DNA from: Tausonia pullulans | Taxonomy: Eukaryota > Basidiomycota > Tremellomycetes > Cystofilobasidiales > Mrakiaceae | DNA length: 64,000 bases | Direction: 5' to 3' | NCBI GenBank assembly: GCA_951802195.1 | Contig: OX637634.1 | Span: 372,001 to 436,000, forward strand | In this document: positions 9,501 through 18,687 of the stretch, one piece after another | Position numbering within the stretch: the stretch's first letter is position 1 | How the letters are laid out: every line of letters starts with the position of its first letter | Notes under the pieces: generated by a model | Database searches by the model: none | Told to the model about the DNA's origin: nothing | Seen by the model: only the letters and a program-made list of their open reading frames with translations | Position numbers and translations under genes: made by a program

Positions 9501-12500
9501 ACAAACTTGAACTTGCGCCTCGCCATCCGCTCGAGCTCGCGCTCAAGCTTGTCCGTGTTGCCGCCGAAGAGCTGGACAACCTCCGGGTTCTCAACTCGGT
9601 AAAGAAGCTTGATCGCCTTGGAGTAGTTCATGAAGCCCGAGACCGTCCGGTAGAGCGTCTGCGCGCGGAGCGAAGCCCAGATCCGCGTGCGGAGCGTGTA
9701 CTCTGGAGCGGCCGACTTGAAACCAACGGTGTAGAATGGGATGTCGTCCGCGCGCTTCGACTCGGCCTTCTCGTCCGTCTCGGCGAAGGGATATCCGCCG
9801 GCGCCTCCGGGGAAGACGGATGACTCCTCGGCGAGGATCTTGGTGTCCTTGACAAAGTTGTCCCACTCGATCGAGTGCAGCTGCTTGAGGTACTCGAGGA
9901 GCGTGACGCGCGTGTTCTGGTCCTCCTCGCGAATGATTTCGCGGAGCGAAAGGAGGATCTTCTCCGAGTAGTGCGGGACGAGGACCGTGAACGTCGGCAT
10001 TGCGTCGACCGGAAGAGGCTCCGGGATGGCGGTCGTGAGAGACTGGGAAAAGAACGAGATCCGTCGCTCGGCCTCGGATCCACGGGGGAAGAACTCGGTC
10101 TTGAGGCCCTTGTCGCCCTGAGAGATGAAGAACGCCGGGGCGCGGAGCGTCCGCTTGCCCTCGGTCTCCGACTGGACCTGGTGGTAGAGAAGCGTTTGAA
10201 CATGGTCGATCGAGAGGAGGTGCTCGCGGTACATCGAGATGACGACAGCGTTCCAGACTTGCGAGACGAGGACCTTGGGCTTGTACTTGACTTCCATGTC
10301 GGCCGTCGCGAGGATCTTGGCGTAGATCCGCTTGGGGAGCCGGGTGTAGATGTCCTTCCAGGGCGTCCAGATCGACATACCGAGCGCGAACGAGCGGCCA
10401 ATCGAGAAAACGGTGTTCCAGATGACGTACCTGGAGGAGAGGTTGAGCATCTCCGTAGGGCAAGGAGAAAAAACGAAGGGTCGGGGCATGACTCACCAGA
10501 GGAACGTGTCGAGGAAAAAGAGGGCAAGGTCCATGATGAACATGATGGTGAGAGTGAATGCGGCCTGGTTGCGACAGAGGGCGTTGCCAAAGTACTTGTC
10601 CGAGCACTGCTGGACTTGCATGTGCGCCATGACCTTGATCGGGTCACGGAATGAGAGCGTGAGGAAGAAGTACGACTCGGTGAACTAGGGATAGGCGACG
10701 TCAGTAAGAAAGAGAGAGAAAAGAGGGCGAGCAACCAATGACAACCCACCTTGCAGCCAAAGACGAGAACCCAGAGGAGGATCGACGCCACGCGAGGACC
10801 CCCACCGAGCTTGGGGTACGAGGCGGTGAACGTCTGGTTGGCGAGATACTTACGGCTCTTGCCCGCGACGCGGTCTCCGAACATGCGGCCCGAGGGCATG
10901 ATGCCGAAAAGGAGGGTGGCGAAGACGGATATGAAGAACTGAACGATGCCAATAATGAGCGAGACCTGCGATGTGTCGTCGAAGCCTGCGATGTAGACGG
11001 TGGGACCTCCAGTAAGGGCAAGAATGACGACGAGGAAGACGAGACGGCGGGTGAGGTGAGAGGTGTTGTTCCAGGTTGTGGGGATGTAGGCGAATCTGAA
11101 ATAGGGAAGTGAGGGGTAGAGATCAAGTCAGAAACTGCTTCCCTCATCATCCCGACACCCACATCATCACTCACTCGCAGACGGTAGCTCCGATCATGAT
11201 GAGCGTCGCGACGGCTCCTCCAAGCGCCGTGACGGACCACGTCATAGCCCTCTGAGGGTTGAGCGAATTCGCGGGCGAGTAAATCGTCGGCGAGTTGTAG
11301 GCGGTGTAGAACCAGAACATGGAAATGTGGGAGACCCAGATCCGGTTGAAGTTGACGAGCAGGTGGAGGAAAGACCGCTTCTCATAGTATGTCTTGAAGA
11401 AGGCCCGGCCCCAGTCAATCTTGTCGAACTTCATAAACCGCTGAGCGGGGGGGACGTCGACAAGGCGGGTCTGAAGAAGCAAGGGGAGAGATAAGATGGT
11501 TCCTCGTCAGACCAGCGAGCAAGAGCAAAAGAAAGAAAGCGCTAGCGCCTGCCTCCGCGCACCTTGTCGGCGAGGACGATTCGAGCGATGCCCTCCGGGT
11601 ACCAGAAAAGTTGGTTGACGTCATCGTAGCCGATGACTTGCTCGTGGTCGCGCTCACGCTTGAGGAACTTGCCCTCGACAACCTCGTAGCCCTGGTCACG
11701 GATGAACCGGTAGAGTGGTTTGACGACCGCCCTCAGGTAGAGACCCTCCGGGACGGGCTCAAGTCGGTTCTGGCACTCCGGCGAGCGGTAGTAGTCATCC
11801 GCGCACTTGAAGATGAAGCAGAGACACTCCGGAACGAAGCGGACCTGAGCAGCCTCACCCCAGCAGAGGAGGAATAGCGCGATCTGCCGGAGTCGGTCGT
11901 ACTGCGACATGTTGTGCATCGCCGATCGCCACCGGTTGACGGCCGAGTCGAGTGATTTCTCTGAAGCCGTCGTGGGACCCTTCTTCTTCTTGCCTCCGAG
12001 TGACTTTACCCGCGAGAGACCCGAGTTCTGAGCCGAGCCAATGGCGTCGTCGAGGTCGAGCTGGGCGGCGAAGTACCACTTGCGGTAGTTCGCGTGCTCA
12101 CCACCGATGTAGTCGGCGTGGAGCGTGAGGAGAGCCTGATTGGGCGTCATCCGCGAAGCGCGCGAGTCAAGCTGGATCATCAGGAAGTCGAAGATGTTGC
12201 GCGAGGAGTCTGGAACAGAGTGAGAGGGGAGAGGTGGTGAGAATGAGCAGAAAAGGAGAGAAGAGAGATGACGATGGCGCACCCTTCTGGAAACCGAACT
12301 TGTTGGCCAAGTCGATAAGGACGTCTTCAATCTCCTCCTTCGAGAGGGGGATCTGGCTCTCGGCCGTCCAGGCGGGCTGTCGAAGGGCGCGGATGTGGAT
12401 GGGTCAGCGTGCGATCTCTCCTCTCTCTTCTCAGGCCCTCTTAGCTCGGCTCCCTCGGTGATTTGATGATGGTCACCGACCGCGCACTCCTCCCCGCGCG

Positions 12501-17182: not shown

Positions 17183-17186
17183 AAAA
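17183..17186 (-). terminator. Pol III terminator of the permuted tRNA-Thr
   Basis: A TTTT tract begins 2 nt after nucleotide 37 of the 5' half on the minus strand. Four Ts are a standard RNA polymerase III stop. Its position means the primary transcript would end almost exactly at the 5' half, leaving only a very short 3' trailer. Confidence 0.55.
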
Positions 17187-17187
17187 G

Positions 17188-17262
17188 TACGAGTGACGCG
17201 CTCTACCACTGAGCTATCAGGGCTTTAGCCCCAAGCCAGGTTTGAACTGGCGACCTCATCAT
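17188..17262 (-). tRNA. Circularly permuted tRNA-Thr (anticodon CGT)
   Basis: On the minus strand the 3' half of a tRNA comes first and its 5' half follows after 3 nt. 3' half, 17262-17227: A38; anticodon-stem strand TGATG (17261-17257); variable AGGTC; T stem GCCAG/CTGGC around loop TTCAAAC; acceptor strand TTGGGGC (17234-17228); discriminator T. Then AAA (17226-17224). 5' half, 17223-17188: acceptor GCCCTGA, TA, D arm GCTC-AGTGGTA-GAGC, G26, stem CGTCA, loop start CTCGTA (C32 to A37, anticodon CGT). Rejoined at 37/38, all four stems pair fully, with two G-U wobbles in the acceptor and one in the anticodon stem, giving a 72-nt cloverleaf without encoded CCA. Position 32 (C) can pair with G three nt before the 3' half, like the anticodon-intron pair of eukaryotic pre-tRNAs. 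A-box TAGCTCAGTGG and B-box GTTCAAACC are intact but in reversed order. No second copy of either half lies nearby. Confidence 0.8.
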
Positions 17263-17288
17263 ATCATCGAAGCTGAGAGACAGACGTC

Positions 17289-17314
17289 CCATCTGAGCCA
17301 GGCAGCCCAGATGG
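17289..17314. repeat. Hairpin upstream of the permuted tRNA-Thr
   Basis: Perfect 7-bp inverted repeat, CCATCTG ... CAGATGG, around a 12-nt loop. It sits 26 nt upstream (minus-strand sense) of the tRNA 3' half, in its would-be leader. The minus strand here also contains GGCTCAGATGG, which loosely resembles a D arm but has no matching stem. Confidence 0.45.
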
Positions 17315-17585: not shown

Positions 17586-17757
17586 TAGCTGGTCATCTTA
17601 ATATCTTACCTTTTCTAATGGGCCTATGTCCATACCCATCTTTTGCTTTCCTTCCACCTGTTCTTTCTTTTCGCTATCCCTCTATCTAGCTACGAATCGC
17701 TATCTCCCATAGGGTTACCTCGTCCTCTACGTATAACTCATGACTTAATACAAAAAA
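17586..17757 (+). repeat. Left terminal inverted repeat
   Basis: Left arm, from TAGCTGGTCATC to ACTCATGACTTAATAC plus an A tract. It matches the reverse complement of 18352-18530 with scattered substitutions and a few small indels (for example AATATC against GATATC, and GGGCCTATG against GGACCTATG). Confidence 0.8.
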
Positions 17758-18603: not shown

Positions 18604-18687
18604 CACCGCTTAGGTCATCTGGTAGAGCGCGAGACTGTAAAGATCATAGAACTCTCGAGGTGTGCGGTTCGAGTCCGCAAGCGGTGA
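18604..18687 (+). tRNA. tRNA-Tyr (GTA), 11-nt intron, some atypical core bases
   Basis: Cloverleaf: acceptor CACCGCT (18604-18610) pairs with AGCGGTG (18680-18686), discriminator A at 18687. C1-G72 is the eukaryotic tRNA-Tyr identity pair. Anticodon stem CGAGA/TCTCG, loop CTGTAA then C, anticodon GTA. An 11-nt intron (18641-18651) sits at 37/38, and C32 pairs with the G at intron position -3. T arm TGCGG-TTCGAGT-CCGCA is perfect. Oddities: the D stem GGTC/GAGC has a G11-G24 clash where most eukaryotic tRNAs have C11-G24; position 15 is T and position 48 is G, so the usual 15-48 Levitt pair is lost; the A box is correspondingly off-consensus. It may be a functional but drifted gene or a decaying copy. 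Normal 5'-to-3' order, in contrast to the tRNA-Thr nearby. Confidence 0.75.

Follow-up and report, generated by a model that had tools for sequence, protein, structure and literature searches.

Circularly permuted tRNA-Thr genes in a basidiomycete fungus

The window (the whole 64,000-nucleotide stretch of DNA analysed, which lies within contig C15) carries on its minus strand, at 17188-17262, a type II (37/38) circularly permuted tRNA-Thr(CGT) gene. It is very likely one of ten functional permuted nuclear copies of this gene in a basidiomycete, with maturation by way of a circular intermediate. This is a known kind of gene in a new host group, a fungus with two permuted threonine isoacceptors at 13 places; until now, such genes had been found in unicellular algae, in a nucleomorph and in a single archaeon. 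The original prediction described a single locus, which is real, but nine further copies, a permuted tRNA-Thr(TGT) and A boxes upstream of the genes had been missed.

The permuted gene in the window

In the direction of the minus strand, the locus consists of the following parts:

17289..17300, minus strand: A-box-like TGGCTCAGATGG, which begins 38 nt upstream of the 3' half
17263..17287, minus strand: leader resembling the 3' end of a tRNA intron (...CGATGAT)
17227..17262, minus strand: 3' half, tRNA-Thr(CGT) nt 38-73 (ATGATGAGGTC...GGGGCT), transcribed first
17239..17247, minus strand: B box GTTCAAACC within the 3' half, as read in the sequence
17224..17226, minus strand: 3-nt intervening AAA, between nt 73 and nt 1 (TGG, TGC or CCT in other copies)
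17188..17223, minus strand: 5' half, tRNA-Thr(CGT) nt 1-37, ending in the loop CTCGTA with anticodon CGT
17206..17216, minus strand: A box TAGCTCAGTGG within the 5' half; at this locus it follows the B box
17183..17187, minus strand: trailer C and TTTT, a Pol III-type terminator straight after nt 37

That the 3' half precedes the 5' half with AAA between them, as originally predicted, is borne out by the minus-strand order from 17262 to 17188, and all the stems named in that prediction pair in the rejoined 72-mer, which ARAGORN calls tRNA-Thr(CGT). Across the join, the anticodon arm and variable loop (CGTCACTCGTA followed by ATGATGAGGTC) read exactly as the unbroken CGTCACTAGTAATGATGAGGTC of tRNA-Thr(AGT), save for nt 34, so that the 37/38 junction and the threonine identity are fixed independently. 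Among the copies described below, all 21 pairs of the cloverleaf form in each of the five distinct sequences, and the eukaryotic invariants T8, G18G19, T33 and TTC at 54-56 are present (by eye).

ARAGORN and Rfam (at gathering scores) each find one tRNA in the window, at 18604-18687, and miss the permuted gene; standard tRNA annotation can overlook entire isoacceptors in fungi. A covariance model (R1), derived from 13 non-threonine tRNAs of the same genome that we permuted in silico at 37/38, scored the locus at 65.8 bits (E = 7.9e-22) against 15.5 bits for the next match in the 64-kb window; chance is excluded. Across 55 of 80 loci (119 kb), R1 gave ten permuted tRNA-Thr(CGT) loci at 60.7-65.8 bits, followed at 30.8 bits by runners-up that are halves of ordinary tRNAs. 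The evidence bears out the original claim that a fungus carries a permuted gene for tRNA-Thr(CGT).

Ten permuted copies of tRNA-Thr(CGT)

A DNA search of the genome (23.9 Mb, 21 contigs) with the joined tRNA found ten places, at each of which the halves are swapped and 3 nt apart; it returned no normal-order copy:

C15:389188, C15:255761 and C11:310662: permuted tRNA-Thr(CGT)
C9:1028105, C9:1189767, C9:1204187 and C9:1222828: permuted tRNA-Thr(CGT)
C4:493034, C4:629993 and C4:640810: permuted tRNA-Thr(CGT)

An exact pattern running from the A box to the anticodon recovered the same ten loci and three other strings, none of which is a tRNA. The ten copies represent seven distinct immediate contexts, with segmental duplicates among the copies on C9 (three) and C4 (two), and in all 21 pairwise comparisons of these contexts the similarity of the flanks extends no further than 12 nt upstream of the 3' half and 10 nt downstream of the 5' half. 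The T-stem pair 49-65 is G-C in five copies and A-U in the other five, a compensatory change; the covariation over the five distinct sequences was matched by 53 of 500 shuffles. A search for the permuted gene in viral contig and genome contig collections, both of little use for fungi, returned no match.

Near-identical duplicated stretches, some of them inverted, hold both permuted and ordinary tRNA genes in this genome (C9:1189767, 1204187 and 1222828; C4:629993 and 640849; the C6 tRNA clusters, L021-L028). Separately, tRNA-Trp(CCA) accounts for ten of the 63 Rfam tRNA matches, and a dispersed repeat of about 87 bp (GTATTTAAGTCATGAGTTATACG...) occurs in the window at 17671-17756 (minus strand), where it adjoins a T-run.

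A second permuted family, tRNA-Thr(TGT)

The genome also holds a second permuted family: tRNA-Thr(TGT) is permuted at three places, with linkers of 45, 48 and 53 nt:

C9:854400-855000: permuted tRNA-Thr(TGT) locus L105
C11:569500-570100: permuted tRNA-Thr(TGT) locus L106
C2:1549050-1549500: permuted tRNA-Thr(TGT) locus L107

For the TGT strings at C9:854558 and C11:569653, the matching 3' half precedes the 5' half, starting 81 and 84 nt ahead of it, and none was found downstream in the stretches read. Both halves are identical between these two copies, and the surrounding 557 bp are 90% identical. In both, the D arm is damaged and the acceptor stem has a U4-U69 mismatch, and they may be decaying. 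The third copy, diverged and found by DNA search (C2:1549198-1549338), pairs completely in its acceptor, anticodon and T stems and has a single mismatch in the D stem, A13-C22 (by eye); a search with its joined sequence returned just the C2 gene itself, as two swapped pieces.

In the window and the 55 of 80 loci scored, R1 gave no permuted isotype beyond the ten tRNA-Thr(CGT) loci; it scores the long-linker tRNA-Thr(TGT) loci at only 15.4 and 14.4 bits, so that further permuted genes with long linkers would escape it.

Threonine tRNAs in normal order and the decoding of ACG

Pattern searches allowing at most one mismatch returned 64 strings with a D-loop of 8 nt and 23 with a D-loop of 7 nt. 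Of the 64, 21 are the 5' part of tRNA-Thr(AGT), and the three of these that were read are all complete in normal order. Neither the DNA search with the joined tRNA nor the A-box-to-anticodon patterns (D-loops of 7-9 nt) detected a normal-order tRNA-Thr(CGT) or tRNA-Thr(TGT); an intact standard tRNA-Thr(CGT), named in the original prediction as grounds for refutation, was thus not found by these searches. With D-loops of 7-9 nt covered by the patterns and 63 of 897 candidates scored in the Rfam census, tRNA-Thr(AGT) is the only one of the three threonine isoacceptors for which normal order was found.

Several candidates were discarded along the way. Six other strings have CGT in the anticodon position, and on reading, none proved to be a tRNA. 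Thirteen strings with an NGT triplet gave no ARAGORN call and reached at best 12.3 bits with a normal-order threonine model, on which tRNA-Thr(AGT) genes score 57-69 bits:

C1:93280, C1:1078826, C9:1235799, C2:186515, C20:172113, C15:218819 and C17:628374: rejected
C8:1320909 (one of four identical), C12:844079, C10:452029, C17:126881, C9:1122700 and C16:143439: rejected

The model R2 carries invented threonine anticodon loops and hence served as a screen only. Rfam matches to 'Plastid-ycf2', 'Flavo-1' and 'sR14' fell below gathering scores and were also discarded.

The inosine-34 of tRNA-Thr(AGT) decodes ACU, ACC and ACA, but not ACG. Since no normal-order tRNA-Thr(CGT) or tRNA-Thr(TGT) was detected, the permuted genes are, if the census holds, the only candidates found for reading ACG. 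The codon is in use: ACG makes up 17 of the 50 threonine codons in the Rrp7 and tRNA-ligase open reading frames, the Rrp7 frame being taken from stop to stop and possibly including non-coding ends. In Xanthophyllomyces dendrorhous, a relative, ACG is used at an RSCU of 0.78 according to the portion of PMC4404019 available to us. The available portions of PMC4404019, PMC11260810, PMC8905146 and PMC5100859 hold no list of threonine anticodons for Phaffia or Mrakia, and the last of these names a Table S5 of tRNA copy numbers.

Terminators, leaders and trailers

In all 13 permuted loci, TTTT begins 0-9 nt after nt 37, and no TTTT occurs in any of the 13 from the first nucleotide of the 3' half to nt 37; TTTT within 10 nt occurs at 1.7% of random window positions. 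Seven of the ten non-identical permuted leaders have G at -3, facing C32, and two more have G at -4, and the 3' end of the intron likewise has G at -3 in the four intron-bearing kinds examined (Lys, Tyr, Asp and Met). In the window leader this G faces C32, and the CG is complementary to C34-G35 of the anticodon. The ordinary intron-bearing Lys, Tyr, Asp and Met genes of the fungus share the 37/38 break and the intron G at -3 facing C32 (C32 by eye), but differ in having their halves in normal order. The 37/38 break is also the site where the fungal endonuclease cuts introns. tRNA-Ser(CGA) bears an intron too and lies outside the -3 comparison.

At the C2 tRNA-Thr(TGT) locus, the leader AGGCAC can pair with the trailer GTGCCT, while at C9 and C11 AGCAC can pair with GTGCT, a compensatory difference from C2. 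Compared with shuffled leaders, leader-trailer helices were longer at p<0.05 in none of ten loci (p 0.07-0.96; 0.82 at the window locus). Unconstrained folding kept the T arm and acceptor hairpin in four of ten precursors (L056, L057, L105, L106) and gave the full expected shape in none of the ten; the expected fold, when forced, lies 0.3-5.9 kcal/mol above the free fold.

Functional family or mobile repeat

Judged from its sequence, the permuted threonine family is very probably functional. The leading alternative, which we consider improbable, is a dispersed non-functional repeat, that is, a tRNA-derived mobile element or pseudogenes spread after one permutation, for example from a reverse-transcribed circular tRNA. 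The ten tRNA-Thr(CGT) copies are indeed dispersed and near-identical, two of the three tRNA-Thr(TGT) copies are partly degenerate, and dispersed repeats occur in the wider flanks: the 87-bp repeat precedes the 3' half by about 410-625 bp in four permuted loci (L051, L057, L058, L059) and is possibly a piece of a transposon targeting Pol III genes, and a repeat-rich block of about 0.5 kb (91% identity), the largest repeat shared in the wider flanks, lies 106-128 nt upstream in L057 and L059. However, the sequence shared between contexts is limited to the gene and the few flanking nucleotides given above, all ten tRNA-Thr(CGT) copies retain every pair, one of these pairs through a double change, all 13 loci have their terminator at the 3' end, and the flanks inspected by eye show no A-rich tail. 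A dead repeat would, moreover, leave ACG without a reader, as the searches described above detected no other gene for tRNA-Thr(CGT) or tRNA-Thr(TGT).

Promoter and origin

In the permuted genes the B box, the role of which is well established, comes before the A box. A TATA-like sequence in the 60 nt upstream was found in none of the ten permuted genes and in four of 47 ordinary tRNA stretches. Three of nine contexts have a strong A box 27-51 nt upstream of the 3' half, with p-values that are optimistic since the boxes were spotted by eye before testing:

TGGCTCAGATGG, window locus: score 13.6, p = 0.0004 (optimistic), against 20,000 random 80-nt windows
TGGCTTAGCGG, L057/L058: p = 0.0004 (optimistic)
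TAGTCCAGTGG, L059: p = 0.0024 (optimistic)

The box at L055 is borderline (p = 0.06), and an upstream A box is absent in five of the nine contexts (L052, L056, L060, L105/L106 and L107; p 0.21-0.89); control stretches from the same loci score at most 8.7. At L057/L058, nt 6-35 of the 5' half can be aligned through ACTCGT with the stretch upstream of the 3' half (p = 0.008; 23 matches, 7 mismatches and 4 gap letters), with the acceptor strand outside the alignment. The same comparison gave p = 0.060 for L106, 0.064 for L051, 0.086 for L059 and 0.16-0.82 for the others.

These observations suggest that the upstream A box is a promoter element rebuilt from a lost 5' half, of which TGGCTCAGATGG is perhaps a relic. 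The genes probably originated by tandem duplication of an intron-containing tRNA-Thr gene, after which the outer halves were lost, and the 5'-half-like upstream stretch with its retained A box fits the duplication-and-loss scenario published for permuted tRNA genes (section 10 of PMC3978253, as far as available to us). We put forward more tentatively, as a possibility somewhat on the doubtful side, a fuller picture in which all ACG-reading tRNA comes from the amplified permuted genes, driven by the relic upstream A box and the B box of the 3' half with no TATA element, the relic acting as both promoter and leader intron, and duplication and loss being caught midway.

The alignment at L057/L058 could also be taken to mean that ordinary split or intron-bearing tRNA genes contribute the two halves as their outer exons (an upstream gene the 3' half and a downstream one the 5' half) or that the halves are joined in trans, and L106 weakly fits the normal-order model (21.9 bits). 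This explanation is very unlikely: the T-run follows each 5' half within 0-9 nt, ahead of any 3' half, no 3'-half-like relic was found within 150 nt downstream in ten loci (p 0.05-0.90, the p of 0.05 at L052 being a 12-nt match), and the upstream relic is degenerate, with an alignment that stops short of the acceptor strand. Local mis-assembly or a chimeric contig, the other ground for refutation named at the outset and one favored by nothing but the oddity of a single locus viewed alone, is vanishingly improbable and in effect excluded by ten permuted loci on four contigs (C4, C9, C11, C15) with differing immediate flanks and linkers (AAA, TGG, TGC, CCT) and by three permuted tRNA-Thr(TGT) loci on C2, C9 and C11.

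Proposed maturation of the permuted tRNA

For the permuted tRNA-Thr(CGT), we infer transcription, circularization, cleavage and charging along the following lines. A Pol III precursor would comprise the leader, the 3' half, the 3-nt linker, the 5' half and a U-tail, and would fold into a cloverleaf in which the linker closes the acceptor stem and the open ends lie in the anticodon loop, as they do at an ordinary 37/38 intron. Cleavage at 37/38 by the tRNA splicing endonuclease would release the leader and trailer, and a Trl1-type ligase would seal nt 37 to nt 38 to give a circle, from which RNase P and tRNase Z would take out the linker before CCA is added. The mature product would decode ACG. 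In the algal pathway a circular intermediate is likewise formed, with RNase P and tRNase Z as the enzymes that probably open it (PMC3978253, in the portion available). Candidate enzymes are encoded in the genome: a Trl1-type ligase match (PF08302) lies at C6:344037 (E = 3.3e-16), a tRNA-intron endonuclease family match on C1 (E = 1.9e-8, with a TGA within the matched stretch) and a second one on C7 (E = 6.1e-5). Trl1-type ligases are found in fungi and plants, according to the part of PMC4090602 available.

Comparison with known permuted tRNA genes

The closest parallel is Cyanidioschyzon merolae, which has a permuted tRNA-Thr(CGT) with an intervening sequence of 31 nt (Soma, 2014, PMC3978253, Table 1; the comparisons that follow rest on the same available portion of that source). 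As in the fungus, the 3' half comes first, the break is type II (37/38), a T-run follows the 5' half and CCA is unencoded. C. merolae differs in its linkers (7-74 nt, compared with 3 nt in the fungal tRNA-Thr(CGT)), in having one permuted tRNA-Thr(CGT) gene as opposed to ten, and in the TATA-like sequence found within 50 bp upstream of most of its permuted genes, whereas the fungal genes have none in 60 nt. The permutation of tRNA-Thr(CGT) in both organisms is presumably convergent. In Ostreococcus, Micromonas and the Bigelowiella natans nucleomorph, 20 of 21 permuted genes are type II (37/38) like the fungal ones, but these green-algal lineages have permuted mainly Ser, Leu, Cys or iMet (19 of 21) and no Thr, with linkers of at least 5 nt compared with the fungal 3 nt. 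The archaeon Thermofilum pendens also has swapped halves, with one linker of 1 nt, but its junction is at 59/60 in the T loop, it depends on the archaeal endonuclease and its CCA is encoded. The fungal 3-nt linker is thus shorter than any eukaryotic one in the table of that source (5-74 nt) and longer than the archaeal 1 nt.

Among the open-access papers listed, judged by title and the start of the abstract, and in passages of PMC8450103, PMC4033280, PMC12636532 and PMC4090602, we found none that describes permuted nuclear tRNA genes from a fungus, in line with the original prediction, which knew of none; most subscription papers and all bioRxiv-only preprints lie outside this body of literature. 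A multi-copy permuted family, apparently with a decoding task that nothing else covers, would offer a test of transcription, circularization and maturation, and both the handling of permuted precursors by a fungal endonuclease and ligase and the origin of permuted genes would become testable in a yeast lineage.

Host relationships and neighboring genes

The best named relatives of Rrp7 come from Mrakia frigida, with 55% identity across 62% of the query, and from Phaffia rhodozyma, with 47% across 60%, both members of the Mrakiaceae, Cystofilobasidiales, Tremellomycetes, and on the protein similarities of FKS1 and Rrp7 the host would belong to the Tremellomycetes, Cystofilobasidiales. In the window, an exon of the 1,3-beta-glucan synthase FKS1 lies at 9631-11127 (minus strand). 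The ordinary tRNA of the window (18604-18687, plus strand), a Leu(TAA) in the default ARAGORN call, is called Tyr(GTA) once introns are allowed, with an intron that would be 11 nt long.
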